Part shown: piece after piece, positions 9,135 through 45,675 of the stretch
Layout of the letters: each line of letters begins with the position of its first letter
Position numbering within the stretch: position 1 is the first letter of the stretch
DNA from: Anoxynatronum buryatiense
Lineage (GTDB): Bacteria > Bacillota > Clostridia > Peptostreptococcales > Tindalliaceae
Direction of reading: 5' to 3'
Assembly (NCBI RefSeq): GCF_900182905.1
Contig: NZ_FXUF01000001.1
Span: 62,001-126,000 of the forward strand
DNA: 64,000 nt
Translations under genes and position numbers: made by a program
Notes under the pieces: model-generated
Told to the model about the DNA's origin: nothing
The model's database searches: none
What the model saw: only the letters and a program-made list of their open reading frames with translations

Positions 9135-9162
9135 CAAATCACCTCCGTCGCATTTATATCGA

Positions 9163-10886: not shown

Positions 10887-10966
10887 AACAAAACCCCAAA
10901 TGCGGGGCTTTACTCGTGGAATGAACTCAATTTGCAACTATTTCAAATAAAGGGTTAGCAGAATGG
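10887..10966 (+). repeat. Diverged copy of the integrase-proximal repeat (left copy)
   Basis: About 80 bases, including the hairpin ACCCCAAATGCGGGGCTTT and CGTGGAATGAACTCAATTTG, match 44530-44610 in the same orientation with roughly 11 differences and one indel by eye. The right copy lies directly after the integrase gene. Confidence 0.8.
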
Positions 10967-10977
10967 ATTTGCAAAAA

Positions 10978-11088
10978 ATCGAGTAGGGGGTAGCTGATTA
11001 ATTCAGCTACCGACCTCTCACACCACCGTGCGTACCGTTCGGTACACGGCGGTTCACGAAGCATCAATTTTAACGGATAGATAATAAC
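10978..11088 (-). mobile_element. Group II intron 3' remnant (domains V and VI)
   Basis: On the minus strand the DNA reads GAACCGCCGTGTACC, GAACGGTACGCACGGTGG and TGTGAGAGG (11055-11013): a domain V hairpin of the type common in bacterial group II introns. It is followed by a domain VI helix GTAGCTGAATTAATCAGCTAC and the intron end CTACTCGAT at 10978. Upstream the intron is cut off by the IS at 11089; neither the reverse transcriptase gene nor domain I is found on the other side of the IS. Confidence 0.75.
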
Positions 11089-25881: not shown

Positions 25882-26021
25882 TTTCAGGCCTCCTTATTTC
25901 ACCCTACAGATCTTGTTTGTTGTTTTTCCATTAATAGGTGTCGTCTGAGCTGGTCAGTCAGCACCATCAGCATATTCACATTATTACGTTATCTAATAAC
26001 TGGAAAGAGGCTCTTATTCAA

Positions 26022-26843: not shown

Positions 26844-26890
26844 TGCATCACCCCATTGTGCACCAGTCTCATCGGAATATTATCCATGAT

Positions 26891-28798
26891 TCAATTTTCC
26901 GACTGGATTGTAGCGTCAACCTGATCGATTCTTTTGTCAATGTCATCCAGTTCCTTCTTTTTCAGTATTTCTTGTATGAACATACTTCCAATAGCAGCGA
27001 TTAAGGCGAATATAACCTTAGCTACGGTATTATCGAAAATGTTTTGGAATATGGTAAATAGAGCGATCACAACCACGGCGCCCCACTTTCTTTTTTTGTA
27101 TTTTTTCTCAATACGCGTTCTTTCATCATCCTTAAATTTCTCAATGTTGTTAAGCACCTTAGAATAATGCTTCTCAACTTCATTCTTAGATTGTCTCTCC
27201 TGATCCAGTTTTTCGTTATATTTTTTCTCCTCTTCTTGCCTCACCGCTTCCTTTTCCTTTGCGATCTTTGCTTCCTCATACCTCATTACTTCTTCGATGC
27301 TAATTGATGAGACCGAATCATCCAGCTCTTTTTTAAGCAGATATCTCCGCGAACGCATTTCTGAACGATACATCATATAATCAATTTCTTTGATCTCACC
27401 CGCTTTATGTGCTTCATTTAGCTGCTTGATGTACGCATCCCATGTCTCATTTTTTGGTGCAACAGCCGAATAGCATCTTTCCATAATAATTGATAATGGC
27501 AGCTTCGGCTCTTTAATGCCGTTCATGAGCAATAGTTTGGTTGCCAGCGTGGTATAGTGTATGGTCGTCGGAATAGTGTAATCATCTTCATTGAGAAACG
27601 AAGTAGAAATATAAACCAGTTTCCTGTTCTTGGTAACGAATACCGCTTCACTTTCGAACAGATTACTGGGTTGCTTGTTATTTCTTAGAAGCTGGGTCAT
27701 GTTAATTGCTTTTGCGTCATGTTCTCCTCTTTCGACATTTAGATCAGTATTGTTAAACCCTTCATTAATTTGATCTGCCAGCCTTTTTTCATCGATGAAT
27801 CGCGCATGATCAGCTCTCTCGTAAAATTCCTCAGGGTATATTTCAATTCCAATCTCCTTAATTGATGCCTTAATGTTTTTAATGGCTTCAAAAATCTCGG
27901 TTTTGCTGTTCTTTTTCGATAAGAAGTGGTCCACAGTCAGTCTCATATCGCCATAAGACGGGTCTTTGTACTGCATTATGTTTTCGCAAGCAATCAAGTT
28001 GTTTCTAGCTTCTGATACGGAATGTTCATAACAATAGACTTTAGCATCGAGTGATTTGAGGGTATCGCATAGTTCACGCACAAGGTCTCTCCTAAGGTCG
28101 CCAGCATAACCAAGTGCATAAATCAACAATGGGCTGTCGAGCACGACCTTAAGTCCTTCTAACTTTTTGTCTTTATTATTCGTATAGTGAATATACTTAT
28201 ACGCAACAACGCCTTTAAGCAGTGTTTTTAACTGCTCGATTGCCTCATTGAAAGGCTCCTGTTTTTCGTACTGTTCAACAAAATAAAGACTAAACAGCAC
28301 ATCTTCCTTACTATTATCTTTCACACCATTTAGTGCTGCCAGATCCTCAGAAATCAACACATCAATATTCTTCTCTAAGTACTTCAACATTTTGTCATTG
28401 ACGCCCATGGGACTTATCTCTTCACCCATACTCTCTTTTGCGAAAATGATAACGTCTTTGCAGATCTTATCCAGGGCGTTCGTAAACTCTTCGCCTCGCT
28501 TCAAAACCTCTTGATCTTTATAGCCCTTCACCGGTTCGTAGTAGACAATCCCTTCGGCCTCAGCCTTATAAACCAGACCTTTTGCTTCCAAGCGATTCAG
28601 AATATCTTCGTAATTAGCTGCCGTAAGACTCATGTCGTACTTTGATGTGACACAGCTTTTCAAAACCTCTGTTGTGATTTTATCTGGCACTTTGTCAAAA
28701 AGACAGTATTCAACAAATGGCAACAGCGAATCAATAAAATCTAAATTCTTTTCAACGTTCTCCGCCAGCATGTAATACAACATCAATTCACTACTCAT
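26891..28798 (-). CDS. PIN-like nuclease candidate with coiled coil and C-terminal membrane hairpin
   Basis: A 635-residue protein. After a helical N-terminal region, residues about 215-420 look PIN-like: KVVLDSPLLIYALG (Asp221), CYEHSVSEA (Glu258/Glu263), ERGEHDAKAI and AVFVTKNRKLVYIS, giving the spaced acidic residues and the T-x-N/D motif of the fold. A charged coiled coil (about 500-570) follows, then two membrane helices near 577-612 and a polar tail. PIN domains cut RNA with Mg2+ or Mn2+. The gene lies 76 bases after res and shares its direction, so it probably belongs to the same unit. A membrane-tethered nuclease beside restriction genes suggests an effector. PIN assignment is by eye. 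Confidence 0.6.
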   Translation of the reverse strand: MSSELMLYYMLAENVEKNLDFIDSLLPFVEYCLFDKVPDKITTEVLKSCVTSKYDMSLTAANYEDILNRLEAKGLVYKAEAEGIVYYEPVKGYKDQEVLKRGEEFTNALDKICKDVIIFAKESMGEEISPMGVNDKMLKYLEKNIDVLISEDLAALNGVKDNSKEDVLFSLYFVEQYEKQEPFNEAIEQLKTLLKGVVAYKYIHYTNNKDKKLEGLKVVLDSPLLIYALGYAGDLRRDLVRELCDTLKSLDAKVYCYEHSVSEARNNLIACENIMQYKDPSYGDMRLTVDHFLSKKNSKTEIFEAIKNIKASIKEIGIEIYPEEFYERADHARFIDEKRLADQINEGFNNTDLNVERGEHDAKAINMTQLLRNNKQPSNLFESEAVFVTKNRKLVYISTSFLNEDDYTIPTTIHYTTLATKLLLMNGIKEPKLPLSIIMERCYSAVAPKNETWDAYIKQLNEAHKAGEIKEIDYMMYRSEMRSRRYLLKKELDDSVSSISIEEVMRYEEAKIAKEKEAVRQEEEKKYNEKLDQERQSKNEVEKHYSKVLNNIEKFKDDERTRIEKKYKKRKWGAVVVIALFTIFQNIFDNTVAKVIFALIAAIGSMFIQEILKKKELDDIDKRIDQVDATIQSEN

Positions 28799-28874
28799 GT
28801 GGACACCTCACCTTTGTAGTTTCTGTATAGCCTTCATTATAAAAGAACATAAAATCTGTATATGTCCTCAAGCA

Positions 28875-31838: not shown

Positions 31839-31851
31839 CCTCCGTCACCTC

Positions 31852-33810
31852 CTATATTGAAATAAATTCCTCAATCCCGCCAAGGTTAAAGATTTCTTTC
31901 ACATTGGTTTTTTCGCTGTCTGAGGCAAAGCCATTGTCACGGCATACCACCCGGGCACTTTCAGGTTCCAGTTTTTTCACCAAATTAAGAATACCTTCAG
32001 CCACTTTGGTTGTGATCTGATTTCCCAGGCAAATCATCAACATGCCAAAGCCAATGGCATAGACTTTCTGACCTGCTACTTCATATTCTTCCACTGGATA
32101 GGTTAAATCAAGACCATATTTCAGCATGATCTCATACACTACATCCAGCTCATTGCGCCCTGCCACAAAGTTTTCCAGGTGATCTTCCAGGCTGGTTTGC
32201 AGGTCATCAGGGTCTGGGTTCCACCTGCGGATGTTTGAGTTGTCCAGTTTTAGCACCTTGAAGCCAATGTCCAGGTTTTCAGCAGCGTCACCATGTTCCT
32301 CTTTAATTTTTTTGCCAGCACGTCGAATACGTTCTTTACCGATTTCAGCAATATTCTTGTATCCTGCTTTGAAGGCTTCACTTTTTTCGTCGCAGGGTTC
32401 CGGCAGCTGTACCATGATAAATTTGCGATTTCCCTCGTCTTCAGCATTAAATTGCATAACTGAGTGGGCGGTTGTAGCAGAGCCAGAGAAGAAGTCCAAA
32501 ACAATCCCCTCAGAAGTTCCTGTGAACTCAATTAAAGACTTAATGATTTCTTCATCCTTAGGATTATCAAAAACCTTACCACCCATTAACGACATAAGCC
32601 TTTTTGTTGATGCGCGGCCATCTTTATAAAAGACACTGTATGGAGCTGATGTTTCCCTATCTTTTAAATATGATTTTGTACAGGGCACACTATTTTCATC
32701 TGCACCAAAATGCACTCTATCGTCATCAATTAACTCTTTCATCCTTGCATATGAACTAAACATCCAACCACGAGAAGGAATTTTAACTGGTTTTCCTGTA
32801 TTAGGATGTAGTACTTCGTACTTTGGCCCCCCACCTCCCGGCCAAGATATGTTGTCTGGGAAATATATTCCACGCTTATCAACGGATGAATAATGTGAAT
32901 GATTTTTTGCAGGATGATTTGGTGGAAGAGATTTAAACCACATTTTCAGCTCGTTCTGTATTGCATTATAGTCATGATTATATTTATTCTTGAGTTTATT
33001 GTAGACAGAGTAAATTTCATCTAGCCCTAGCTTTTTCTCCCGCCACAAAGTTGAGCTCTCAGTCAAACAACTTTTCGATTTCGAATAGCAAAGCATGTAC
33101 TCGTGCGATATTGAAACTAATTTTGAGTCATTTTTTCTGCCAGCTGCCCAGACAAATTGGCATATGAAATTCATTTCACCAAATATTTCTGCTAGTACTT
33201 TTTTCAAATTATCAACTTCATGATCATCAATACTAATAAAAATAACTCCATCATCACTCAATAAATTTCGCGCCAGCCTCAACCTGGGGTACAACATGTT
33301 CAACCAATCAGTGTGATAACGTCCGCTGGTTTCTGCATTGGTGCTCAGGTTCTTGCCTTCTCCATCTACCTGACCAGTGATTTCTTTATAGTTCTTGATG
33401 TTGTCTTTGAAATCATCCTTGTACACAAAATCGCCGCCTGTGTTATAAGGGGGATCAATGTAGATCATTTTCACTTTGCCATGGTAGCTCTTCTGAAGCA
33501 GCTTCAGCACTTCCAGGTTGTCGCCTTCTATATACAGGTTTTGGGTGGTGTCCCACTGCTCACTTTCATCTTTGCAGGGCCGCAGGGTGCCGGTGGAAGG
33601 GGTTTGGGAAATGCGCAGGGCTCTGCTCTTACCATTCCAGGTAAAATTGTAGCGTTCTGGCTTGTCTTCTGCATATTCTCCCAACAGCTGCTGCAGTTTT
33701 TCAATATCAACCTTCCCTTCCGTGGCCACTTCCGGGAACAGCTCCATCAGTTTATTGATGTTCTCCTGGGTGATGTTAGGGGTTTTTCCGTTTAGCTTGG
33801 TTTCATTCAT
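31852..33810 (-). CDS. mod: Type III DNA methyltransferase, Mod subunit
   Basis: A 652-residue beta-class N6-adenine methyltransferase. The catalytic motif IV is MIYIDPPYNTGG (about residues 115-126) and the S-adenosylmethionine motif I is IVLDFFSGSATTAHS near 430. Between them lies the target-recognition region (about 215-420), which at DNA level (roughly 32560-33260) is visibly more AT-rich than the flanks, as if exchanged. Mod alone methylates; with Res it forms the restriction complex. The start overlaps the DUF4391 stop by eight bases, GGGAGGAAAGAACC before it. Length is typical. The recognised sequence cannot be predicted. Confidence 0.93.
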   Translation of the reverse strand: MNETKLNGKTPNITQENINKLMELFPEVATEGKVDIEKLQQLLGEYAEDKPERYNFTWNGKSRALRISQTPSTGTLRPCKDESEQWDTTQNLYIEGDNLEVLKLLQKSYHGKVKMIYIDPPYNTGGDFVYKDDFKDNIKNYKEITGQVDGEGKNLSTNAETSGRYHTDWLNMLYPRLRLARNLLSDDGVIFISIDDHEVDNLKKVLAEIFGEMNFICQFVWAAGRKNDSKLVSISHEYMLCYSKSKSCLTESSTLWREKKLGLDEIYSVYNKLKNKYNHDYNAIQNELKMWFKSLPPNHPAKNHSHYSSVDKRGIYFPDNISWPGGGGPKYEVLHPNTGKPVKIPSRGWMFSSYARMKELIDDDRVHFGADENSVPCTKSYLKDRETSAPYSVFYKDGRASTKRLMSLMGGKVFDNPKDEEIIKSLIEFTGTSEGIVLDFFSGSATTAHSVMQFNAEDEGNRKFIMVQLPEPCDEKSEAFKAGYKNIAEIGKERIRRAGKKIKEEHGDAAENLDIGFKVLKLDNSNIRRWNPDPDDLQTSLEDHLENFVAGRNELDVVYEIMLKYGLDLTYPVEEYEVAGQKVYAIGFGMLMICLGNQITTKVAEGILNLVKKLEPESARVVCRDNGFASDSEKTNVKEIFNLGGIEEFISI

Positions 33811-34531
33811 GGTTCTTTCCTCCCGTCAATTGTTGGCGCTGTTGTTCCAGCTTTTTCATCTGTATGTTCAGTTCCATTTTCCGATTAAACTGGGTTTCCC
33901 GCTTCAGCTTTCCTTTCAGACTCGTCATTTCTTCGTCCAGCCGTTGAATGGTTAGGCTTAAATCCCTGGCTTCTTCCGGTGTGAGGTCTGCAGGGTGATT
34001 CAGTATTTCCTCCACTTTGAACTGATATACCGCCGAGACAAAATCATCGTACAGTGCATACAGGTTACGAAAGCGCATGTTTGTAATGTTCAGCCTCTCA
34101 AAGAGAGAGCTGTTTTCCATTACCCAGTCTGTTGCCACCACTTCTTCGATAGTGTTTTTGGTGGGGTCGTTCTGGTTGGTGCGCTGGTGGGCCGCATAGA
34201 GCTTGATCTTCTCTTCCCAGGTTGCAAACAGCAGCATGGGGTACGGGATGGTTCTCATGAGAATCTCCGCCAGTCGGTCCAGGCTACGGTCTTCCCGCAC
34301 TGCCATTTGAATCACAAGGAGTTCTTCGTATTCCCGTAGTGGGTCTTTGTAGGCTTTGACATTGATGGTGGCCGGCTTGAGGCTGTAGAGGCATGTGATC
34401 CGGGAGATGTTCATTTTGATCAAGTCTTTTTCCTTGTTGGTAAGTTGGGCTTGACTGTAGAACAAATCCTTGGCGATGATTTGATTGATCTCACAACTTG
34501 ATGGGATTTGAAGTTTGTGGTGATAGGCCAT
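33803..34531 (-). CDS. DUF4391 domain-containing protein
   Basis: A 242-residue protein. Recognised by MNISRITCLYSLKPATINV near the start, EYEELLVIQMAVRE, YPMLLFATWEEKIKLYAAH and the C-terminal coiled coil rich in EEMTSLKGKLKRE-type heptads. Family function is not known; members are consistently encoded with large helicases and methyltransferases. Here it is wedged between the SNF2-like helicase (11 bases) and mod (8-base overlap), so the four genes are surely one operon and the protein is probably a structural or adaptor part of the complex. The start is the ATG after AGGAGGTAATTTG. Confidence 0.85.
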   Translation of the reverse strand: MAYHHKLQIPSSCEINQIIAKDLFYSQAQLTNKEKDLIKMNISRITCLYSLKPATINVKAYKDPLREYEELLVIQMAVREDRSLDRLAEILMRTIPYPMLLFATWEEKIKLYAAHQRTNQNDPTKNTIEEVVATDWVMENSSLFERLNITNMRFRNLYALYDDFVSAVYQFKVEEILNHPADLTPEEARDLSLTIQRLDEEMTSLKGKLKRETQFNRKMELNIQMKKLEQQRQQLTGGKNHE

Positions 34532-34542
34532 CAAATTACCTC

Positions 34543-37500
34543 CTACCTCAATACCAAGAAGGTGATTAGTTCAAAATCGTCGATGCCTTCTGCTTTATGT
34601 TTCGTCAGGGTGGTGCCACCTTTTTTCAGGAGGCTGGCCGTCCCCATTTCTTCTTTTTTACCCGTCAGGTTTTCGATGGCGGCTTCCAGCAGATCAGAAT
34701 AATCTTTCATGTTGAGTCCATCATCGGTTTCCTGGTTAAAGGCATCCACCAGTTCCCTAAAGACTTCTTTCTTGCCAGAACATAGTTTTTTGTAGTAGTC
34801 CAAGATCTTCTTGGCATGGGTGTAGGTGATGTGCACCCCTTCCTCTGACACATAGGCCATGTAATAGGGGTAGAGGGGGTTTTGTTCTTTTAACTGCTGG
34901 GCCTCTTTCACCTGGCGCAGGGTAAAGATAACGCCGGGTTTCAGCTCTTCACGCAGCGCGTCAGGGATTTCTGCCACAGCGTACATGCCATTGGGGGCTT
35001 GTTCCAACAGCTTTCTGTTTTCTTTCATGTATTCCATCAGGTCAATTTTGAAATCGTTGAAGGTCAGGTCGGTGATGGAGATGGCGCCGGAGATGTCCTC
35101 CAGGTCTACCACTTCAGATTGCAGACGTTTTAGCTGATTACGACGGTACTCCAGGTCTTTCATTTCTTTGCTGGCGTCGGTTTCAATCAGGTTTTCTTCC
35201 CCGGTGGCGGAGACATCCATTAACACCATACGGCCCTGGACTCGTTGCTGCAAATTGATATATTCGTCCAGATCCCGGGTGGCCCAGAAGTTGACCAGTT
35301 GGATGACTTCGTTGATGGAGCCAATACGGTCAATCCGACCGAAGCGCTGGATGATGCGCACCGGGTTCCAGTGAATGTCGTAATTTACCAGGTAATCACA
35401 ATCCTGCAGGTTTTGGCCTTCTGAAATACAGTCTGTTGCAATGATGACATCAATCTCTTTGTCCATTTCCGGGTAGATTTTCTCACATTCCTTTGACCGG
35501 GGCGAGAACAGGGTAAGCACTGTGTTCAGGTCGGTAATGCGGATGGTTTTACGCTGTTCCCTGGTTAAGGGCAGGGTGGACTGATTGGTGCCGCTACCTG
35601 TGACCAAGGCTGCGTACAGGCCTCTGTCTTCAAGAAACTGGGTCAGGTTGGCATAGAGGTATTCCGCTGTGTCTGAAAAGGCGGTGAACACAATGATCTT
35701 TAGGTTTCCCGGGTTAATGGGGTGGTTCACTTTATGCTGCATCAGGTCTTTTAATTGAGCCAGTTTGGCGTCCCTTTCCGGAGTTACTTCAACGGCTTCC
35801 AGGTAAATGGTTTCCAACTTGTCCCTGTCTGCCAGCAGGTCTTGTTTCCATTTGAGCAGGTCCATGTCCTGCAGCAATACTTTAATGTTGTTGCCAAAGA
35901 GAAGGTTGTCCAGGTCCGGATCATCCAGGTCAATGTCTTCAATGTTGTTTTCTACATCATAATCCCATTGTTTTCGTTCAATAAGTTCCAGGGCAGCGTT
36001 GATTTTGCCTAATATTTTATCCACCGTTAGTGCAAAAGAGTGGATGGAGCTTTCCATGCGCTTTAAGATCCCTATACGCATCAAGCCTACCAGGCTTTTT
36101 TCCCGGTCCACCTGTCGGAAGATGCTGTTATGGGCGCCTACTTTCACGTCATACTTTTCTTCATAGGCGCTTCTTCGTTCCGGCAGCACGTACCCCAAGG
36201 GAGAATACACGCAAAGGGTTAGCTTTTTAATCAATTTGTTGATGTATTCAATTTCGGGGAAATCGCCCTTTAGGTCGATTTCCGGGTACAGGTTTTCCGG
36301 AGTTAATCGGGTGGGGAATTTGCCTATTTCATCCAGATTATAGTATTTTTCAATGTGTTTTCGTGACCGTGCAATGGTAACGGTGTCCAATAACTTGAAG
36401 TAGTCCAGGTGCATCATGTTGACAAACGTTTCGGTTTTTCGCTCTTCGTCGGGTAATTCCGACCAACGGTTGTAGACTGTCTGTGCTTGTCTTAAGATAA
36501 GCTCCAGGTTGTTTAAACCCACTTTTGCCAGGGCATGATTATCGCCTTCGGTGATGAAGGAAATTTGATTTTTGATGTCATTCATCTTGTTGTTGACAGG
36601 TGTGGCGGATAGCATCAAGACTTTCGTTTTAACACCGGAACGGATGATTTCGTTCATCAATCGTTCGTAACGGGTGGTACGGCCTTTGACTGGCGGGTTG
36701 TTTCTAAAATTATGGCTTTCATCGATGACCACCAAATCATAGTTTCCCCAGTTGACGGTTGCCAAGTCGATGTCACCGGTTTTGCCGCTGGTGCGACTTA
36801 AATCAGTGTGGTTAATGACGTCAAAATTGAACCGGTCTTTTTCAAAGATATTCCTTTTATCGTTTTTTGTGTAGATGATCCAGTTATCCCGAAGCTTCTT
36901 AGGCACCAGCACCAGCACACGATCATTGCGCAGTTCATAGTATTTCATTACTGCCAGGGCTGTGAAGGTTTTACCCAGACCAACGCTGTCTGCAATGATG
37001 CAGCCATTGTATTTTTCAATTTTATCGATGGCACCCATGGCGCCGTCTTTTTGGAATTTATAGAGTTTGTTCCAGATCAAGGTGTCCTTTATCCCGGTAC
37101 GGCTTTTCACGATATTGTCTTCTGTCAGTTCGTCCAGGTAGTCGGTGAAGATGTTGTAGAGGGTAACGAAGTAGATGAATTCGGGGACGTTCTCACTGTA
37201 AAGCATTTGCATTTGTTCTAACACTTGTTTTTTCACGTCCTCCACTGCTGTTTCATCTTCCCATAGGTCATTGAAGGCTTGCAGAAAAGCCAGGGTGTAT
37301 TCTTTGCCGTATAGACACATGTTACTGTCCAAACGGTTTGAAGGAGTGATCCCCAACCCGTCTGATGTGAAGTCAACCGTACCGTTGATGGAAAGATTTT
37401 CTTCTGGATTCTCCACATAAATGAGGCGGGGTTGTGCCGGGTTGGGGCTTTTCAGAGAACGAATTTCCGCTTTTCGTTCCAGCCAGTTGGCACATTCTTT

Positions 37501-37806
37501 AGCAATGGCAGCTTGGCGCATTTCATTGCGCAATTTGATTTCAAACTCATTTCCGGAAACTATCTTTTCGGTGTTGCGGTGTATGTAAAATTCCCTGATT
37601 AATTCATGGTCTTTTTTGACAAAAGTGGGTTCGGTGAAAACAAAGCGCAGTCGGTCAATTTTTTCCAGTTCTTTTCGTAGTTCAGCGTAGGCATAAATGG
37701 TAAAGTAGGCAGATACCACAGACAACCGGCTTCCTTTTCTAAGTTCAGAGCGAAGTTCATCCACCACTTTGTTCACTTTGTTGTCTAAGACCTTTGGGCT
37801 CCTCAT
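34543..37806 (-). CDS. SNF2-type helicase with degenerate PLD-like N-terminal domain
   Basis: A 1087-residue protein. Residues about 1-190 resemble the phospholipase-D-like domain found in front of some helicases (LSVVSAYFTIYAYAELRKEL, then NLSINGTVDFTSDGL), but the HxK pair is not intact, so nuclease activity is doubtful. The motor has IADSVGLGKTFTAL (Walker A, near 275), LVLVPKKLRDNW, LVVIDESHNFRN (motif II), MLSATPVNN (motif III), and in the second lobe IIATDCISEGQNLQDCDYLV with IIQRFGRIDRIGS (motifs V, VI). It is the first gene of the helicase-DUF4391-Mod-Res operon. The start at 37806 follows AAGGGG with eight bases spacing; a GTG nine bases earlier overlaps that site. Confidence 0.88.
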   Translation of the reverse strand: MRSPKVLDNKVNKVVDELRSELRKGSRLSVVSAYFTIYAYAELRKELEKIDRLRFVFTEPTFVKKDHELIREFYIHRNTEKIVSGNEFEIKLRNEMRQAAIAKECANWLERKAEIRSLKSPNPAQPRLIYVENPEENLSINGTVDFTSDGLGITPSNRLDSNMCLYGKEYTLAFLQAFNDLWEDETAVEDVKKQVLEQMQMLYSENVPEFIYFVTLYNIFTDYLDELTEDNIVKSRTGIKDTLIWNKLYKFQKDGAMGAIDKIEKYNGCIIADSVGLGKTFTALAVMKYYELRNDRVLVLVPKKLRDNWIIYTKNDKRNIFEKDRFNFDVINHTDLSRTSGKTGDIDLATVNWGNYDLVVIDESHNFRNNPPVKGRTTRYERLMNEIIRSGVKTKVLMLSATPVNNKMNDIKNQISFITEGDNHALAKVGLNNLELILRQAQTVYNRWSELPDEERKTETFVNMMHLDYFKLLDTVTIARSRKHIEKYYNLDEIGKFPTRLTPENLYPEIDLKGDFPEIEYINKLIKKLTLCVYSPLGYVLPERRSAYEEKYDVKVGAHNSIFRQVDREKSLVGLMRIGILKRMESSIHSFALTVDKILGKINAALELIERKQWDYDVENNIEDIDLDDPDLDNLLFGNNIKVLLQDMDLLKWKQDLLADRDKLETIYLEAVEVTPERDAKLAQLKDLMQHKVNHPINPGNLKIIVFTAFSDTAEYLYANLTQFLEDRGLYAALVTGSGTNQSTLPLTREQRKTIRITDLNTVLTLFSPRSKECEKIYPEMDKEIDVIIATDCISEGQNLQDCDYLVNYDIHWNPVRIIQRFGRIDRIGSINEVIQLVNFWATRDLDEYINLQQRVQGRMVLMDVSATGEENLIETDASKEMKDLEYRRNQLKRLQSEVVDLEDISGAISITDLTFNDFKIDLMEYMKENRKLLEQAPNGMYAVAEIPDALREELKPGVIFTLRQVKEAQQLKEQNPLYPYYMAYVSEEGVHITYTHAKKILDYYKKLCSGKKEVFRELVDAFNQETDDGLNMKDYSDLLEAAIENLTGKKEEMGTASLLKKGGTTLTKHKAEGIDDFELITFLVLR

Positions 37807-38163
37807 GTGTTTCACCCCTTGTATTTGATGAGATGCTTTCCTGTAAACAATATGTCTTTTAGATCATTTTGCTCCTAACAACTCAACGAGTATCGACAAT
37901 TTGGGTAGATCGCCAACAATGTCTATTGGGTAGCCTATTTTTTTGTCTGCCACTTTCTTCAAAAAAACTCTCCAGCTACTATTTTAGCATAATAAACGTT
38001 CAAATTTGTCTATTTCTAGGATTTCATTCGATTTTTTTAAATTGCCTGATTGATGATATTATTTAAAATTCGATTGTGGGTCCGGCTTTTGAGAACACTG
38101 TGAAAGATTGTCTCCGGGGTCTTGCCCAGCAATCGTCTTGTACTGTCACAGCAACCCAGTAGA
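37807..38163. other. Intergenic region upstream of the helicase operon
   Basis: About 360 AT-rich bases between the replication operon and the helicase operon. It must hold the helicase-operon promoter, but I see no convincing -35/-10 pair and no gene. Confidence 0.4.
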
Positions 38164-38202
38164 AATCCCGGCAACGAGTGAACCACACTCTCTGCCGGGA
38201 TT
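38164..38202 (-). terminator. Terminator of the element replication operon
   Basis: AATCCCGGCA (38164-38173) pairs with TGCCGGGATT (38193-38202), with an inner GAGTG/CACTC stem; on the minus strand the hairpin is followed by TTTCT. It separates the replication genes from the helicase operon. Confidence 0.75.
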
Positions 38203-38222
38203 GTTGATGAGTTTATTAAGAT

Positions 38223-38489
38223 TCAACAAGTGCTGCTGCCTTCCGCTGCTCCCTGGGGGTTGTTGTTGCGATCCAGGCTAATCAGGTTTTCTCTGCTGAG
38301 ATGCATGATGAGCAGGGCGGTTTCATATTCGGCGTCGGCGCCGGTTTTGCCGCTGGTGGCAGGTGATCTCAGGTGTTGGCTGATGGCTGTGACGCCGTAC
38401 CCTGACTGCCACATATGAATGGCTTTTTGAATGTCTTCCGGCTGCCAGTCGAAGTTCAGGTCTTCCAGTATAATGACGGGTTTGCTCAT
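38223..38489 (-). CDS. Small phage-type protein, unknown
   Basis: An 88-residue protein reading LEDLNFDWQPEDIQKAIHMW and then a helix-turn-helix-like GYGVTAISQHLRSPATSG and ALLIMHLSRENLI. AAGGAGGCCCACC before the ATG at 38489 fixes the start. Proteins of this type occur in the replication regions of Gram-positive phages; possibly a DNA-binding regulator. It follows the helicase-loader gene, across a low-complexity stretch with a roughly 21-base repeated unit around 38517-38565. Confidence 0.65.
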   Translation of the reverse strand: MSKPVIILEDLNFDWQPEDIQKAIHMWQSGYGVTAISQHLRSPATSGKTGADAEYETALLIMHLSRENLISLDRNNNPQGAAEGSSTC

Positions 38490-38618
38490 GGTGGGCCTCC
38501 TTTTGTGTCGGTTCATGTGGTTGCTGCTCTTGGTGTTGTGGCTGTTGCTGCTCTTGGTGTTACTGCCCTCGGCGCTGCTGCTGTGGCTGTTGTGGCTGTT
38601 ATCAAAGAGACTGAGGAA

Positions 38619-39446
38619 TCAGGTTTCGCTGGTGATCAGCTGGATCAGCTGGTCTCGCTTGCTGCGGGCCACGGCGGCTCTCTGGGAAGGGCCTTTGACA
38701 GTGATGGGCTGGCACATTTCCATGAGACGGTCATAGGTGCGCACCACTTGGTCGTAGCCGGTGAGTTTTTGCTGCAGCTGCTGCAGGCTCAGGTTGGTGG
38801 TGATGAGCAGGGGCTTGCCGCTTCTGTACCGGTTGTCGATGATCTGGTAAAGCATTGCTGTGGCCCAGTCGGTTTTCTGCTCAGACCCCAGGTCGTCAAG
38901 CACCAGCAGGCTGGCATTTTCAAGGGTGCGGATGATATCAATCTCTGCCTCTCTGTCTTGCCGGTTAAAGGTTTCTCTAATTCTTGCCAGCAAACCCATG
39001 GCACTGACGGCAATCACGACTTCACGGTGGCGGCTGATTAGCTCGTTGGCCACTGCAAATGCGGCGAATGATTTTCCCACGCCTGGGTTCCCTAGAAGCA
39101 TGAGGCCGATGTTGCAGGTTTTCATTTCTGGCCAGGCTTCCACATATCGCAGAATGGTTTTTTTCAGCTTGGGGCAACCGACGTCGTCGTTCCAGGCAGC
39201 GAGGGTACTGTTGCGAAAACGGGCATCCATCAGGCTGTATTTTTTCAGTTTTTCGATGCGTCGAATGATTTCACGGCGTTGTTCGTCACGCTTTCGCAGC
39301 GCCTGGGCTTCTGCCTGGCACCGGCACACGCAGGGAACCTTTCGGCTGATGCCAAGAATGGTGATGGTGGTGGTGCGTTTGGTGCCGCAGGTGTCACAAG
39401 TGTCGTGGGTATCGTGAAAGTCGTGGGCGTTGGCAGTCTTACCCAT
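38619..39446 (-). CDS. DnaC/DnaI-like helicase loader ATPase
   Basis: A 275-residue protein from the chosen start MGKTANAHDF. A zinc-finger-like CDTCGTKR...CVCRC lies near residues 16-43, then the AAA core: LMLLGNPGVGKSFAAFAVAN (Walker A, about 115-134), ASLLVLDDLGSEQKTDW (Walker B) and PLLITTNLSLQQL (sensor 1). It would load the host replicative helicase at the element origin. The open frame extends 126 codons further up, overlapping the preceding gene; that part is a threonine/proline-rich translation of the other gene's repeats and is unlikely to be used. No strong ribosome site is seen at 39446, so translation may be coupled and the exact start is uncertain. Confidence 0.82.
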   Translation of the reverse strand: MGKTANAHDFHDTHDTCDTCGTKRTTTITILGISRKVPCVCRCQAEAQALRKRDEQRREIIRRIEKLKKYSLMDARFRNSTLAAWNDDVGCPKLKKTILRYVEAWPEMKTCNIGLMLLGNPGVGKSFAAFAVANELISRHREVVIAVSAMGLLARIRETFNRQDREAEIDIIRTLENASLLVLDDLGSEQKTDWATAMLYQIIDNRYRSGKPLLITTNLSLQQLQQKLTGYDQVVRTYDRLMEMCQPITVKGPSQRAAVARSKRDQLIQLITSET

Positions 39447-39483
39447 TTTTCGGGCGTGATGGATGTTCTCATTAACACTGGTT

Positions 39484-40929
39484 TTACAGGTCCAGGTGGT
39501 CAAGGTCGATGCCAATGCCGGTGTATTCTCCATGGGTGTCGGTGACTGGTTCGTTGCTGGTGCTGGGCTGTTTTTGGCCGGCGGGGCTGACACGGGAGGT
39601 AACCGGTTGAGGGTTCTTTCCAGTACGGTTGTGATGCTCTCGGGGATGGTTGTTGTGAGGGTCGTTGTTGTGGGAATGGTTTTTTTGGGGATGGTTGCTG
39701 TGGGCAGAGACGTTGTGGGATGCCTGTATGTGTGGTGCTTTCGGGTCATTTTCTTGCCCTCCTCGATTAAGATAATTCCCCTCCAGGGTTTTGGCCATGC
39801 CTTCGTTGCTGATGAGCCAGTCAAAAGTAGCTTTCCATTGGCGGTTGTTCATCCCTTTAAGAAAATCTGAGGCTTCTGCCATCTGAAACAAGTGCTGAAA
39901 GTGTGCTGTCGTCTGGCCATACTCATTCCATCTGGCTGCCATGGCTTGCCGGCGTTTCTGCGTAATCTTGATGATGCTCGCAAACGACGGGCAGGCGGCA
40001 TGATAGAGGTCGACAATTTGCTGATAAGGCACTGAGGTGTTGGCTGAGGCTGCCTTTTCATTTTTCGTGTGATGGGTCGCCTGAATATCGTGGAATCCTT
40101 TGATGTGAGTGGAGACATCAGTGGAGATATCATTGGAGATATTATTGAAGATATCCTTCTTTTCATTCTTGTTTTCTTTCTTTCTTGTTTGTGGGCGGCT
40201 GTGTGGTTTCCGGCTTGCCATTGGCTGGTCTTCAACATCTGGCGATTCAGTGTTTCCAGTGGATTTGCTGCGTCGTTCCGGCGACGCTTCCCTGGTCTTT
40301 GGCAAGTCTGCAAGGTCCTCTTTCAGCTCTTCATCTGGTCTGGCGCTGTCGGGGATCTTCATTGGCTGTGTTTCCTGCCACACTGTCTCGCTGCCTGGCT
40401 GGCCACCTTCTTGTGTGAGTGACTGGTTAATGATCTGCGGGTTTGTCTGACTATTTATCTGACGATGTGGCTGGGTGATGATCTGTGGGTTTGCCTGGCT
40501 GAGTGACTGGTTAATGATCTGTGGGTTTGCCTGGTTATTTGCCTGACGATGTGGCTGGGTGTCTTTTTCCTGGTCACTATCCCACGCCTTGTCCCACTGC
40601 TGCCATTTATCATAGTTGCTGATCTCAATGATGGTGTAATGGGCTGTGGCCTGACGTGCTATCATGGTGTCTGTTTCCAGTTGTTTGATGAAGGTTCTCA
40701 CTTTTTTCTCGCCCCAGCCCCACCGCTTGGCCAACTGGTTGGCACTGGTGACTGTTTGGCCCCGCTGGCACTGGATGAGATGACTGCCATGGAGGAACTT
40801 TTTAGTGGTGTGATTGGCCAGCATTACCAGATCCAGCCAGGCCTGGCCTTTTGAAAAAGGTTTATCATCCCACAACCAGTGGTTCTGCAGCTGGCGATAT
40901 ATTTTGACATATCCCCTGTTTGTACCCAT
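39484..40929 (-). CDS. DnaD-like replication initiation protein of the element
   Basis: A 481-residue protein. The N terminus (MGTNRGYVKIYRQLQNHWLW, then SANQLAKRWGWGEKKVRTFI) is the winged helix seen in phage and conjugative-element replisome organisers; a weak DnaD-like region lies around residues 290-370 (YQQIVDLYHAACPSFASI, FDWLISNEG). Between and after are low-complexity stretches: repeated NPQIINQSL units (about 140-175) and a His/Asn-rich tail. GGGAGGTTAGTTTGC before the ATG at 40929 fixes the start. It is followed by the helicase loader, the usual order in replication modules of Gram-positive temperate elements. Confidence 0.8.
   Translation of the reverse strand: MGTNRGYVKIYRQLQNHWLWDDKPFSKGQAWLDLVMLANHTTKKFLHGSHLIQCQRGQTVTSANQLAKRWGWGEKKVRTFIKQLETDTMIARQATAHYTIIEISNYDKWQQWDKAWDSDQEKDTQPHRQANNQANPQIINQSLSQANPQIITQPHRQINSQTNPQIINQSLTQEGGQPGSETVWQETQPMKIPDSARPDEELKEDLADLPKTREASPERRSKSTGNTESPDVEDQPMASRKPHSRPQTRKKENKNEKKDIFNNISNDISTDVSTHIKGFHDIQATHHTKNEKAASANTSVPYQQIVDLYHAACPSFASIIKITQKRRQAMAARWNEYGQTTAHFQHLFQMAEASDFLKGMNNRQWKATFDWLISNEGMAKTLEGNYLNRGGQENDPKAPHIQASHNVSAHSNHPQKNHSHNNDPHNNHPREHHNRTGKNPQPVTSRVSPAGQKQPSTSNEPVTDTHGEYTGIGIDLDHLDL
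40417..40560 (+). repeat. 84-base tandem repeat inside the DnaD-like gene
   Basis: A unit beginning GAGTGACTGGTTAATGATCT starts at 40417 and again at 40501 (period 84, 28 codons), about 1.7 copies with a shorter NPQII-coding sub-repeat inside each. Confidence 0.75.
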
Positions 40930-41101
40930 GCAAACTAACCTCCCAAGAGACTGGAGCTTCACAACTGACCTTAATGCTGTGCCTATGATTCATTGGCGCC
41001 GTTTTCTTGTGCACCAGTTTCCATCACCTACATCTCACAGGTGTCAGTCCCCCGGCTTGTAAGCTCTCAAGTATTCCATGCTCCCTCTATTCCCTCCATT
41101 T

Positions 41102-41350
41102 TTAGCCTTTTGCTTTTCTGGCACCGGTGGTCTTCTGCACGTTAATGGTCTTAATGGTGATGGTCGATGCTTCCACTTCCTGATCATCTGTGATCATGCG
41201 CTGGATGTATTCTTCCAGATCGGTGCTTCTCACCCGCCATTGGGCTCTGATGCGGGCCGCCGGCAGCTCTTTTGCATGAATGAGGGAATAAACGGTGTCG
41301 GTGCTTACTTGCAAGCGGTCTGCTGATTGTTTAACGGTGTAAAGTGTCAT
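41102..41350 (-). CDS. Excisionase-like MerR-type helix-turn-helix protein
   Basis: An 82-residue protein: LYTVKQSADRLQVSTDTVYS (helix-turn-helix of the excisionase/HTH_17 family), LIHAKELPAARI, QWRVRSTDLEEYI. Proteins of this size and type bend attachment-site DNA and turn the integrase towards excision. GGGAGGCTTTCAC precedes the ATG. It is transcribed with the replication genes, divergent from repressor and integrase, as expected for an excision gene switched on at induction. Confidence 0.85.
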   Translation of the reverse strand: MTLYTVKQSADRLQVSTDTVYSLIHAKELPAARIRAQWRVRSTDLEEYIQRMITDDQEVEASTITIKTINVQKTTGARKAKG

Positions 41351-41463
41351 GTGAAAGCCTCCCTAATGGTTATGGTTGGTGATGATGCTTGGTGATGTTG
41401 ATTGGTGATGATGCTTGTCTCACGGGTCTCTTTCGGATGAGCCCCGCTGCCAGACACACCTCC

Positions 41464-41661
41464 TTAAGCGTTTTCATGGGGTTCCACGTTTCCTTGGAGC
41501 CCCAGGGAAACAATGATCCGTTCCCGGTGCTGCTGGGCAATCCGGTTGCCTCTGATAATGTCTGATAGATAGGGCCCTGAAATGCCCAGCTGTTTTGCCA
41601 AGGCGCTCTGGGTCATGCGTTTGTCAATGAGCGCTTCTTTCACAGCTTTTTCAAAGTTCAT
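41464..41661 (-). CDS. Cro-like XRE regulator
   Basis: A 65-residue helix-turn-helix protein (MTQSALAKQLGISGPYLSDI is the DNA-binding part). AGGAGGACAAATC precedes the ATG. It is the first gene leftwards from the divergent control region, opposite a larger XRE repressor, the layout of a Cro/CI switch. Confidence 0.85.
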   Translation of the reverse strand: MNFEKAVKEALIDKRMTQSALAKQLGISGPYLSDIIRGNRIAQQHRERIIVSLGLQGNVEPHENA

Positions 41662-41748
41662 GATTTGTCCTCCTGTCTTTGGTCGATGATGTTTTCTTAG
41701 TGCTTTTCAAAATGTATCGCGTTGTCCCTTAGCGATTACATCTCTTGT

Positions 41749-41821
41749 AATAGCGATGAAGTCTGTTTGAATAGCGATGAAGTCTGTTTGAATAGCGACG
41801 AAGCCTGTTTGAATAGCGACT
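41749..41821 (+). repeat. 21-base iterons in the control region
   Basis: AATAGCGATGAAGTCTGTTTG at 41749-41769 is repeated exactly at 41770-41790, with two changes at 41791-41811, and partly (AATAGCGACT) at 41812-41821. Period 21, two helical turns. Confidence 0.9.
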
Positions 41822-41871
41822 GCGCTTCGCATTTTAGCCTATGGTGTTAGTTTCTTAACTTAGTTAATCTG

Positions 41872-41908
41872 TTGACATTTATTAGTTTTTATGCTAATCT
41901 ATTAGCAT
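41872..41908 (+). promoter_or_regulatory. Repressor promoter with palindromic operator
   Basis: TTGACA (41872-41877), 17 bases, TAATCT (41895-41900). The perfect dyad ATGCTAAT-CT-ATTAGCAT (41891-41908) covers the -10 box. The leader to the repressor gene is about 180 bases and contains CGACCCCC (41944-41951) mirrored by GGGGGTCG near 42063. Confidence 0.75.
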
Positions 41909-42085
41909 AGAATCCTACATTATAAAAAAACATAGAACACGAACGACCCCCATATTATATTCGGCATCCGTCTTGCGCTGAAACTTTATAAAAAACACTA
42001 TACTTAATTAAAAGCTAATTGTCAATAGCGAATGCGCTAATTTATAAGTGCCACATTCTATCGGGGGTCGGAATGGAGGTCAAAA

Positions 42086-42391
42086 ATGGAAATACTTAAT
42101 AGGATTCAAGCGCTATTAAGGGAAAAAGGTATGACAATCGCTGAACTGGAAAGAAAAGCCAATATCGGGAATGGAGTGATTCGCAGGTGGAACAATTCTG
42201 TGCCCACCGCCGATAAACTGCAACGTGTTGCTGAAGTGCTGGGTACCACCATCGATTACTTGTTTAACGGCGAAAACGAAGCGGATTCAAAAGCCCTCTT
42301 TATTGGACGGGAGGCTTCTGAACTCACCGATGAACAACGTGAAATCATCACCAGCATGATTCGGCAGATGAAAGCCAAAAATCAAAACTGA
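42086..42391 (+). CDS. XRE family repressor (CI-like)
   Basis: A 101-residue protein with the helix-turn-helix MTIAELERKANIGNGVIRRW (about residues 15-35) and PTADKLQRVAEVLGTTIDYL, then a short C-terminal helix ELTDEQREIITSMIRQM. GGAGGTCAAAA precedes the ATG. It would hold the leftward replication and excision operon silent by binding the dyads upstream. It is coupled (13 bases) to the ImmA-like gene, the pair being the known CI/ImmA arrangement in which ImmA cleaves the repressor. Confidence 0.9.
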   Translation: MEILNRIQALLREKGMTIAELERKANIGNGVIRRWNNSVPTADKLQRVAEVLGTTIDYLFNGENEADSKALFIGREASELTDEQREIITSMIRQMKAKNQN

Positions 42392-42404
42392 AAGGCGTGG
42401 ATCA

Positions 42405-43025
42405 ATGAGTAACCGACACAATCACACACACCGCCAGTTGGATGATGAACAACACGATTTGAATGCCGGAGATGGCCGCAGCCATGATCACAGATTGGCT
42501 CTAACCGGTAAAGTGACTGATTTTTTAGCAGACCCCGCCCACAGGCATCTTCTCAGTGCCCAGCCATTGAACCTGGAGAGCCTCTGTGCCCATGTGAAAG
42601 TGCATGCCTGCTCTTACAGCACTGCCAATCCTGAACTAATAGCCATTTCGACGGCTGGTTTTACTGTTTGTGAGCAGGGAGAATGCTATCTGTTTTACAA
42701 CACCTCCCAGCCCTTCGACCAGATTCAACTATCTTTGGCAACGCAACTGTGCCATTATCTCCTGTGTCATCCCTTGAGTCATCCCCACTTTTTTCAAGTG
42801 GCCCATGTCTTAGAGCAACAATCTGAGCAACACCCAGCGCAACACCCAGATCAACAATCAGATCAGTACCCAGATCAACAATCAAAGCAGTACCCAAAGA
42901 ATGCAGCCTTTCAGCCCCTTGCAGATGATGCCGCCTATTTCGCCCGTCATCTCATCAACTTCCATCGTCAACCATGCGTTGAAAAGTGCTCCAGTGCACT
43001 CTCATCGCAATTAGATAGCTTCTAA
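42405..43025 (+). CDS. ImmA/IrrE-like pseudo-protease with inserted Gln-rich repeats
   Basis: A 206-residue protein. After a His-rich start, residues about 55-125 follow the ImmA/IrrE pattern: AISTAGFTVCEQGECYLFYN, then LSLATQLCHYLLCH. The last piece lines up position by position with the AHELGHYLLGH active site of ImmA, but His and Glu of HExxH are replaced by Thr and Gln (TQLCH), so zinc-protease activity should be lost. The closing DDAAYFARHLINF matches the family's EANxFAxxLLMP helix. Between them sits a repeated Q-S-x-Q-Y-P-x-Q stretch. AAAGGCGTGG precedes the ATG. It may bind the repressor without cutting it. Confidence 0.65.
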   Translation: MSNRHNHTHRQLDDEQHDLNAGDGRSHDHRLALTGKVTDFLADPAHRHLLSAQPLNLESLCAHVKVHACSYSTANPELIAISTAGFTVCEQGECYLFYNTSQPFDQIQLSLATQLCHYLLCHPLSHPHFFQVAHVLEQQSEQHPAQHPDQQSDQYPDQQSKQYPKNAAFQPLADDAAYFARHLINFHRQPCVEKCSSALSSQLDSF

Positions 43026-43282
43026 ATCTTCAACCGCTTCTTCAACTTCTTCAGCTTCTTCAACTTATTCAGTTTGCATCGTATTATCCAGCTTCAATCG
43101 TTTCCACAAGCTTGAACATTCCCCCAGTGTATTCACCTGCAGCCTGTTTCACGTCCCTTTCCATCAAGCCTTGTGTTGTTGGCAGTTGAATCAGTGTCAA
43201 ATGGTATCTTTAAATGATTGCTCTAAATGGCATCTTTTTGGGGCATCTTAACAGGGCATCTTTAAAGGAGGAGGCACATCTC

Positions 43283-44410
43283 ATGCGCGGATCCGTTATT
43301 AAAAAAGGCGACAAGTGGTATATCTCTGTTTACCTGGGAATGAAAAACGGCAAGAAGCACCGCAAATGGTACTCTGGCTATGATTCCAGAGAAGCGGCCG
43401 AAATTGATCTGCCCAACATTCTGCTTGATATTCAAAAAGGCATTGTGGTGGATGCTTCCACCATGAAGGCTTCTGAGTTTTTTGACCAGTGGCTGGCAGA
43501 TCACGTGGTTCCCAACACCTCTCCCAGCACCGTTGACAAGTACCGCGCTGCCGTCAAAGCCGCGAATGTGGTTTTTGGCCATGAACGAATCCAGAAAATA
43601 ACGCCTCAGCACATGCAGCGATTTGTGAATACCCTGGTGAAAGAGGGTAAAGCCCGCCACACTGTTATCTCCTACTACACGGCCATCAAGTCTGCCATGG
43701 TAAAAGCCGTCAAGTGGCGCATCATTCTCCATAACCCCTGCATTGATATCACCCTGCCCAAAGAAAAGAAGAAAGCCATGAAAACACTGACTGCCGAAGA
43801 AGTTTCCCATCTGCTGAAGTCTGTAGAAGGCACCCCCATGCATCTGGTTATTTTTCTGGCAGCCAGCTGCGGCCTTCGCCGTGGCGAAATTCTGGGGCTC
43901 ACCTGGCGTCATGTTGATCTGGTAAACCGGGTGATCCATGTGACAGATGCCTGGACACAGTCCACTCAGGGCGTCCAAATGGCCAGTTTAAAGACAGACT
44001 CCTCCCATCGTTCCGTTGACTTCAATGACTCTGTCAAGCAAGTGCTGGAGCGTCAAAAGGCGGTTCAGGAAGATTTCATCAGGCAGCGGGAAGGTAACGT
44101 TATTCGGCTGAGCGATGGCCGCCGTCATGAAATGGATGATCAGCAGGTATGCACCTGGCAAGACAACGAGCCCATGCGCCCCGACTATGTATCAAAAACG
44201 TTCAAAAAACTGCTGAAAGAGGCAGACATTCGGCCTGTCCGCTTTCACGACCTGCGCCACACCCACGCCACCCTGCTGATGAAAGCAGGCGTCTCCCCTA
44301 AGGTGGTGCAGGAACGCCTTGGTCACAGCGACATAAAAGTCACCCTGGGATTGTATTCCCATGTGATTCCTTCCATGCAACGGGAGGCCGCAGAAATCTT
44401 GCACTTTTAG
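43283..44410 (+). CDS. int: Tyrosine recombinase / integrase
   Basis: A 375-residue phage-type integrase: N-terminal AP2-like arm-binding part (IKKGDKWYISVYLGMKNGKK), SAM-like core-binding domain (about 65-150) and catalytic domain with Arg in CGLRRGEILGLTW, HDLRHTHATLLMKAG (His-x-x-Arg), LGHSDIKVTL (His) and the nucleophile Tyr in YSHV. All catalytic residues are present. AAAGGAGGAGGC before the ATG at 43283 sets the start, shorter than the full open frame. It points to the element's right end beside tRNA-Thr. Confidence 0.95.
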   Translation: MRGSVIKKGDKWYISVYLGMKNGKKHRKWYSGYDSREAAEIDLPNILLDIQKGIVVDASTMKASEFFDQWLADHVVPNTSPSTVDKYRAAVKAANVVFGHERIQKITPQHMQRFVNTLVKEGKARHTVISYYTAIKSAMVKAVKWRIILHNPCIDITLPKEKKKAMKTLTAEEVSHLLKSVEGTPMHLVIFLAASCGLRRGEILGLTWRHVDLVNRVIHVTDAWTQSTQGVQMASLKTDSSHRSVDFNDSVKQVLERQKAVQEDFIRQREGNVIRLSDGRRHEMDDQQVCTWQDNEPMRPDYVSKTFKKLLKEADIRPVRFHDLRHTHATLLMKAGVSPKVVQERLGHSDIKVTLGLYSHVIPSMQREAAEILHF

Positions 44411-44454
44411 CAGAACGCCTGTTAGTAGAACGCCTGAATGATAATCAGTGAATA

Positions 44455-44520
44455 CATGACCGAATGATCAAATGAACGAGCGAATGAACGAGCGAACGAG
44501 TTCACGAACGAATGAATGAA
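44455..44520 (+). repeat. GAAYGAACGAGCGAA-type short repeats beside int
   Basis: Irregular tandem copies of GAATGAACGAGC / GCGAACGAG / CGAACGAATGAATG just after the integrase. They could be arm-type integrase sites; related motifs stand before the left repeat at 10858. Confidence 0.5.
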
Positions 44521-44529
44521 TGGACATTA

Positions 44530-44610
44530 AGCAAAGCCCCAAACGCGGGGCTTTTTTCGTGGAATGAATTCAATTTGTAACCATTTTAAATTAAGGGGTT
44601 AGAAGAATGG
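44530..44610 (+). repeat. Integrase-proximal repeat, right copy, with terminator
   Basis: Contains the intrinsic terminator AAAGCCCC-AAACGC-GGGGCTTTTTT (44533-44556) that ends int transcription, then CGTGGAATGAATTCAATTTG. The same 80 bases recur, diverged, at 10887-10966. Confidence 0.8.
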
Positions 44611-44621
44611 GTTAGAAGAAT

Positions 44622-44651
44622 CAAAAAACGCCAGTCCTCAGACTGGCGTAA
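44622..44651 (-). terminator. Terminator of tRNA-Thr
   Basis: ACGCCAGT-CCTCAG-ACTGGCGT is a perfect 8-bp hairpin, followed on the minus strand by six T residues; 14 bases downstream of the tRNA 3' end. Confidence 0.85.
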
Positions 44652-44664
44652 GCATTGGAATTAC

Positions 44665-44740
<76 letters not shown>

Positions 44741-44825
44741 GTGTTGCCGTTTTTGACCACGAAATTGATTATACCTGATAGGGCGATGAATGTAAAGACT
44801 TTATTTCAACTTTTTGGCGGTTTTT

Positions 44826-45422
44826 TTATAAGTTGATCTGACCATTATCCAACGAGACAACTCGAATCAATGCATGGACATCAACACCCAACTCACGCAG
44901 CTTTTCGGCACCTGGCTGAAAGCTCTTTTCAATCACAACACCTGCTCCAACCATTTGCGCACCTGCCAGATCAATGATCTCTTTCATACCTTTAATAGCT
45001 TCTCCATTGGCCAAAAAGTCATCTAGCACTAACACTTTTTCATCAGCCTGCAGGTATCTTCGGGCAACACGAATCTGATAAGTTTGGCCTTTAGTGTAAG
45101 AGTAGACTGAGCCTTCCCATGTATCGGGATCTAAATTTTTAGAAAGTGTTTTTTTTGCAAAAACAACCGGCACCTTAAAATACTGGGCAGCTATGGCAGC
45201 TATGGCAATACCAGATACTTCTGCAGTCAGAATTTTATCGATTTTAAGTTGTCCGAAGTGAGCATAAAATGCCCTGCCAATGGTGTTCAAAAGAGAAACG
45301 TCCAGTTGGTGGTTTAAAAAACTGTCTACTTTAAGAATATCATTGCCAATCACCCGGCCCTGATCCAGGATTGCATGACGCAGTATTTCTATATCGTTAT
45401 TGTTTAAAGAAGTTGAACTCAA
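44826..45422 (-). CDS. xpt: Xanthine phosphoribosyltransferase
   Basis: A 198-residue enzyme that converts xanthine and PRPP to XMP in purine salvage. The PRPP motif is VLVLDDFLANGEA (about residues 126-138); the hood region LKVDSFLNHQLDV and ILTAEVSGIAIA are typical of Xpt. Length is normal. The best start is a TTG at 45422 after AGAGG with seven bases spacing; the GTG two codons earlier touches the ribosome site. No purine riboswitch can be recognised in the 250-base leader. It is the first core gene outside the integrated element, just beyond tRNA-Thr. Confidence 0.92.
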   Translation of the reverse strand: MSSTSLNNNDIEILRHAILDQGRVIGNDILKVDSFLNHQLDVSLLNTIGRAFYAHFGQLKIDKILTAEVSGIAIAAIAAQYFKVPVVFAKKTLSKNLDPDTWEGSVYSYTKGQTYQIRVARRYLQADEKVLVLDDFLANGEAIKGMKEIIDLAGAQMVGAGVVIEKSFQPGAEKLRELGVDVHALIRVVSLDNGQINL

Positions 45423-45675
45423 GAACACACCTCTTTTCCTGTGGATCTATATTGACAGAAGAAAGCCTTGAAAGGATTCTTTATATGTTAATCTATAATG
45501 GAAGCATGGTCAAGGGTAACTTCATGGAACAGAACAATTGCTTGACTATTTAAATGGTTCAAGTAGGACTATAGGCCCTATTTTAACTCGGTTTTCAAAT
45601 AAATGCTCCTATTTGGTAGACATAACTTCACTGAAGACGGATAATGAATATGATTTGAATAAAGGAGTTGGTGCG

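Follow-up and report, generated by a model that had tools for sequence, protein, structure and literature searches.

What can an ImmA-type protein do for its repressor once it has lost the site with which the family cuts? The question is raised by a gene at 42405-43025 on the plus strand of the window, by which we mean the whole stretch of 64,000 nucleotides of the Anoxynatronum buryatiense genome analysed here. The gene encodes 206 amino acids from an ATG start and, as the initial annotation had it, stands directly after an XRE/CI-type repressor gene (42086-42391, plus strand), with 13 bases between the repressor's end at 42391 and the start at 42405. The arrangement is that of the ImmR/ImmA pairs of ICEBs1 and TnSmu1, in which an integrated element carries an XRE repressor gene with an ImmA-fold gene behind it; unlike ImmA, for which an HExxH site is stated in the case of TnSmu1 (PMC10233336), the window protein has lost this site. 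Cleavage of the repressor by ImmA is described for ICEBs1 and proposed for TnSmu1 (PMC10233336), and for a pneumococcal prophage the disruption of immA is reported to lower induction (PMC12637031). We thus focus here on whether the protein belongs to the family, on what is left of its zinc site and on the roles that may be open to it.

Homology, predicted fold and the zinc site

The relation to ImmA is independent of HExxH, as the window protein, used alone as the query in whole-genome searches, matches HExxH-bearing ImmA proteins in three other genomes. Its best match (E 5e-6) is L002 in genome G020, which is the same protein as L026 and belongs to Peptostreptococcus sp. MV1; L122 (E 9e-6) and L123 (E 6.8e-4) follow, and all three matches are confined to window-protein residues 53-127. 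The Peptostreptococcus protein, our best-scoring homologue, likewise stands behind a repressor, one that is 51% identical to that of the window; unlike the window protein, it has HEIGH and EIEANVFA and lacks the Gln-rich insert described below. At E <= 0.01 the window protein was matched in 3 of 98 relative genomes (its own, G020 and, by the repeat-only match L003, G050), and at E <= 0.001 in 4 of 391 genomes of the class (its own, G020, G547 and G566). L003 was dropped as a homologue because the repeat region alone matched and its frame contains three stops. Pfam returned no family at E <= 10, and no curated family model (PF06114/COG2856) places the protein in the family; NCBIfam and PADLOC gave no match, and PHROGs gave one weak family without known function (E 0.006).

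The predicted structure has a mean pLDDT of 66.6, with residues 61-120 at 90-95 by blocks and residues 1-21, 123-171 and 191-206 below 50. VIA-align ranks ImmA/IrrE-fold structures at the top, namely IrrE (3dte, Z 10.2; 3dti, Z 10.1), CapP (7t5t, Z 9.4) and PprI (8sln, Z 9.4; 8slm, Z 8.8), followed by two Mycobacterium regulator chains (Z 7.6) and a remainder at 4.7 or lower that includes several metalloproteases. The likeness to 3dte, 8sln and 7t5t (Z 9.4-10.2) covers the fold of model residues 23-198. IrrE (PMC7907104) and CapP (PMC10233336), on the other hand, are described as active metalloproteases, and IrrE includes a further, GAF-like domain (PMC7907104). As the predictor was supplied with an alignment made up of ImmA proteins, the model is dependent on the homology call. 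Foldseek without re-alignment gave no row at E <= 0.001; its top rows are unrelated (SLX4, receptor complexes), and PprI 8sln stands at rank 8 with E 0.56. As judged from the motif-independent matches and the modelled fold, the gene encodes a diverged ImmA/IrrE homologue, in agreement with the initial annotation, which had called the protein ImmA-like.

The zinc site itself has changed. Residues 112-122 read ATQLCHYLLCH where the nearest relative has AHEIGHIVLGH, which confirms the earlier remark that this stretch replaces the AHELGHYLLGH of ImmA proteins. In an alignment with 24 HExxH-bearing relatives (23 of 36 non-redundant ORFs, the 36 being HExxH ORFs of 150-280 amino acids alone, plus L027), the H, E, G and H of the relatives are T, Q, C and H in the window protein, so that TQLCH (residues 113-117; 42741-42755, plus strand) takes the place of HExxH, a motif reported as essential to the protease activity of IrrE (PMC7907104). 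Neither HExxH nor EExxH is found in the protein. Further on, the initial annotation had matched DDAAYFARHL to a helix of the family; it is indeed within the tail's best match to the ExEAxxFA helix, ADDAAYFARHLI, but 873 of 20000 shuffles score equally well, and ADDAAYFARHL (residues 173-183; 42921-42953, plus strand; model helix 172-188) is thus a tentative remnant in a weak register. What that annotation overlooked is that in this register, to the extent that it holds, the near-invariant first Glu of ExEAxxFA is Ala173, and the later glutamate ligand has thus probably been lost. With T, Q and C in the first motif and a weak register in the second, H117 is the one ligand that has been kept for certain; the catalytic Glu has been lost. 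Since the first ligand, the catalytic Glu and probably the third ligand are lost, the neighbouring repressor would very probably be uncleavable by the family's chemistry; the protein may work at most by binding, if it has a function at all.

Between the two motifs lies the repetitive Gln-rich insert (about residues 137-164, within the low-confidence stretch 123-171), which had been noticed before and which we find to be encoded by a 12/24-bp tandem repeat at 42812-42896 (plus strand). Short tandem arrays crowd the whole module: there are 12 in 38200-44665 (1.86 per kb), genic and intergenic, as compared with 0.11, 0.15 and 0.41 per kb in the three remaining parts of the window. The insert thus reflects a habit of the module and is not peculiar to this gene. 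A frameshifted family tail was sought by eye in the other frames of 42880-43260, and none was seen. The protein is 3.9% Cys, 9.2% His, 10.7% Gln and 2.4% Lys, with 8 Cys and 19 His in its 206 residues, and its Cys, His and Gln shares are the highest of 34 window genes compared. The 36 relatives have 0-8 Cys, and one of them, L097, also has 8; Cys richness alone therefore means little, and we demoted it from a special sign to part of a low-probability reading.

Relatives at other repressor loci and the extent of decay

A profile built from four repressors gave 16 genome loci and, with the best 80 of 89 viral loci, a set of 96, in which some loci are the same contig in both sources (L026/L044, L027/L045, L028/L046). 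The order of repressor and then ImmA-type ORF is common to the window and its relatives. In the downstream stretch scanned, an HExxH ORF lies near the repressor at 63 of the 96 loci and an EExxH ORF at 6 (five in the first scan and a sixth, L071, on closer look), which makes 69 ImmA-type neighbour proteins; no such ORF was detected at 27 loci (L030, L031 and L072 are near contig ends), and a TQLCH-like site at none of the 96. The downstream-ORF profile was made from HExxH ORFs, which a very diverged dead ImmA could escape, and the ORFs near the repressor in 28 loci were therefore rescanned unfiltered; L071 alone stood out. The TQLCH variant is absent from the plasmids, phages, 98 relatives and 391 genomes of the class that were searched, and in viral_contigs it gave two pattern matches, none confirmed, the repressor alone giving five, again none confirmed. 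As far as searched, the window protein appears to be a singleton pseudoprotease.

Every homologue found has HExxH or EExxH, and the TQLCH variant is thus not conserved. The initial annotation had itself named a counter-case, namely that close homologues carry HExxH and that this copy is a one-off mutation. The first half stands, with EExxH in some of the proteins found, but the second does not: the first His, the catalytic Glu, the motif Gly and probably the later Glu differ from the relatives, within a frame that has stayed open.

The EExxH proteins (EELGH, EEMGH, EEVGH, EEIGH) stand behind CI-like repressors at L029, L040, L071, L081, L095, L107 and L009 and form a subfamily resembling MpaR of Listeria. 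That they are further dead proteases was considered and rejected, since the motif of MpaR is itself EELMH and the H54A variant of this protein fails (PMC6872733). MpaR, encoded in the Listeria monocin, resembles our case in being a metalloprotease gene behind a CI-like repressor; the partner is described as a cutting protease, and a prophage without one as depending on MpaR in trans (PMC6872733). It differs in its intact motif, and in that we found no such protease elsewhere in the genome of the window. PF06114 gave no match there, the same search being positive in 10 of 14 control genomes, a family model that need not match every ImmA variant and that leaves the window protein itself unmatched. 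An active ImmA in trans was likewise rejected after alignment A3, which recovered the window gene and, at E 0.12, one weak match within a frame of 1052 aa that we attribute to chance.

How far has the protein decayed? In the three catalytic columns all 26 relatives score 14.3 and the window protein 0.3. Across 26 conserved non-catalytic columns its mean of 1.02 lies within the relatives' range of -0.16 to 2.69; 18 of the 26 are positive (P54, G85, F86, Y98, N99, A112, L120 and H122 among them) and 8 negative, and by its overall non-catalytic score the protein ranks 25th of 27. As judged from these columns, the loss appears to be centred on the catalytic site. In a tree of the window protein and 26 relatives picked from the 63 HExxH ORFs, its terminal branch is the 7th longest of 27 without the site columns and the 4th with them, and the terminal branch of the repressor is 10th of 27. 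Pairwise scores had hinted at a strong relaxation of the whole protein, which we set aside since the window protein does not stand out in the tree: the local alignment scores of the window ImmA against L026, L042 and L043 are 70-101 and those of the three among themselves 199-275, despite repressors that are equally close, with other pairs among the seven compared as low as 40. The codon of the first ligand shares no position with either His codon, and all 206 codons are open; if point changes are neutral, the joint chance of the two is at most 6.5e-5, a figure that would be undone by one compound mutation, that ignores polarity selection and for which the codon was picked after inspection. 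The short tail was counted towards decay.

The inserted stretch and its control region

Genome G001, from the same genus, has xpt, tRNA-Thr and a PadR-type gene (named by resemblance) side by side. In the window the PadR-like counterpart is at 8817-9266 and the tRNA-Thr(GGT) gene at 44665-44740 (minus strand), so that about 35 kb (9267-44664) have been inserted, in one or more events. The tRNA bounds the inserted stretch on the integrase side; no exact 14-base match, as an att repeat would give, was found between 44381-45450 and 1-43200, nor was the left-hand copy of the tRNA end. The sequence that separates integrase from tRNA-Thr (about 44505-44625) recurs in diverged form at 10858-10981, perhaps as the relic of an older related element.

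Downstream of the ImmA-like gene is a tyrosine integrase (43214-44410, plus strand), the only PF14659 integrase of the genome. On the minus strand are a divergent Cro-like XRE regulator (41464-41661) and an HTH_17 excisionase-like protein (41102-41350), which like the repressor and the integrase are open frames, a DnaD-like replication initiator or helicase loader (39484-40962; recognised by PHROGs, with no Pfam match) and a DnaC-like helicase loader (38619-39824). The cargo (24973-37815) comprises a type III methylase and restriction enzyme, an HKD-Snf2 helicase and a PDC-S14 candidate. The order of integrase, repressor and replication genes fits that of phage-inducible islands, and no structural gene is present among the genes scanned. 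The genome has no match to PF04860, PF05133 or PF05065 (E <= 0.001), and no resident helper is thus evident by those families.

A leftward sigma-70-like promoter is predicted at 41997-42025 (minus strand, 11/12 matches), in a region where the scan found 4 promoter-like sites against 4.0 expected from shuffles. The palindrome TAGCGAATGCGCTA (42026-42039) abuts it, and another palindrome, whose arms are 9 bp long, is at 41890-41909; both are candidate operator-like sites. TAGCG occurs five times at an exact 21-bp spacing (41730, 41751, 41772, 41793 and 41814, within 41730-41835) and beyond this a sixth time at 42026, a series that is a candidate operator array or set of origin repeats. By eye, the inverted pair CGACCCCC and GGGGGTCG, at 41944-41951 and 42063-42070, flanks the leftward promoter-like site.

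Possible roles of the protein

Of the readings weighed here we narrowly favour one in which the pseudoprotease has been kept as a non-cutting partner of the neighbouring repressor. It would bind the repressor and change how the latter oligomerises or binds its operators, in the manner reported for Rir/Crh, and the protease-driven, damage-type induction of the island would have been lost, as we infer. We put the probability of this statement as a whole at slightly under one half (0.48). Rir is an ImmA-family partner at the repressor of a Streptococcus thermophilus prophage and is reported to inactivate the repressor Crh by interaction without cleavage (PMC7907104); it keeps a predicted HExxH, which the window protein does not. 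The non-proteolytic anti-repressor proposed in the initial annotation is possible on the same grounds. In favour of a retained partner are the motif-free homology, the fold, the position behind the repressor, the site-centred loss, the terminal branch ranked 7th without the site columns, a first-ligand codon far from His in an open frame and the Rir/Crh precedent, as well as the open frames of repressor, excisionase-like gene and integrase and the palindromes and promoter-like site of the control region. Against it are the singleton status, the low ImmA scores against L026, L042 and L043, the 8 negative columns of 26, the rank of 25th of 27 and the terminal branch ranked 4th with the site columns, together with the extreme composition, the repeat insert, the short tail, the null result of Foldseek and a model drawn from an ImmA alignment; the open frame, moreover, could serve just to avoid polarity on the integrase.

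A rival reading is that of a vestige, that is, of a former ImmA decaying in a domesticated defence island, the protein being inert, the repressor no longer inactivated in this way and the island locked in. We regard this as quite plausible, if less probable than retention: the protein is a singleton within our searches, with its site lost, its tail short, an insert of repeats and an extreme composition, no ImmA elsewhere in the genome (PF06114, alignment A3) could help it in trans, no portal or capsid family was matched, and the partner gene is often missing, with 27 of 96 loci having none detected, some of them near contig ends. However, 206 codons have stayed open despite a loss that looks old, 18 of the 26 conserved non-catalytic columns are still positive and the neighbouring genes of the module are open frames. 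It is the core non-catalytic positions, mostly kept, and the open frame that tip our weighing of decay and retention towards a retained, non-cutting partner. Improbable, on the other hand, is a rebuilt metal site (C116, H117, C121, H122 and perhaps C89 and C94) that cleaves or senses by other chemistry; the Cys and His shares and a C116 where 25 of 26 relatives have Gly speak for it, but the catalytic Glu is Gln, and Cys counts reach 8 among the 36 relatives too. Slightly lower still we place a Cys/His metal or redox sensor, formed by the CHYLLCH helix and a CEQGEC hairpin in a zinc-free, binding-only ImmA that would hold or release the repressor, so that a restriction-carrying island would answer to metal or redox state and not to DNA damage. 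Lower again comes a satellite switch, in which protease activity was abandoned and a helper phage protein removes the repressor, as in phage-inducible islands. The order of integrase, repressor, divergent regulators and replication genes and the lack of a structural gene among those scanned would suit it, but no resident portal or capsid is seen by the three families and no packaging or interference gene was recognised; the earlier suggestion of hijacking by a helper phage thus found no support. That the frame is a chance ORF or a sequencing error, as the silence of Pfam, NCBIfam and PADLOC might suggest, is scarcely credible given the independent ImmA matches, several separate codons that differ and a contig 616 kb long.

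What is new here is a protein homologous to a known family but lacking the site that defines the family, and no paper on a protease-dead ImmA was among the matches listed in our literature search. If the dead protein still controls its repressor, the essential job of an ImmA can be binding and not cutting, as Rir/Crh already hints, and nature would have supplied a protease-dead protein with which to test the point. Should the gene be a vestige, the locus would be a snapshot of a mobile island that is losing its induction switch and turning into a permanent carrier of defence genes. In both cases the metal site should be checked when ImmA neighbours are annotated.
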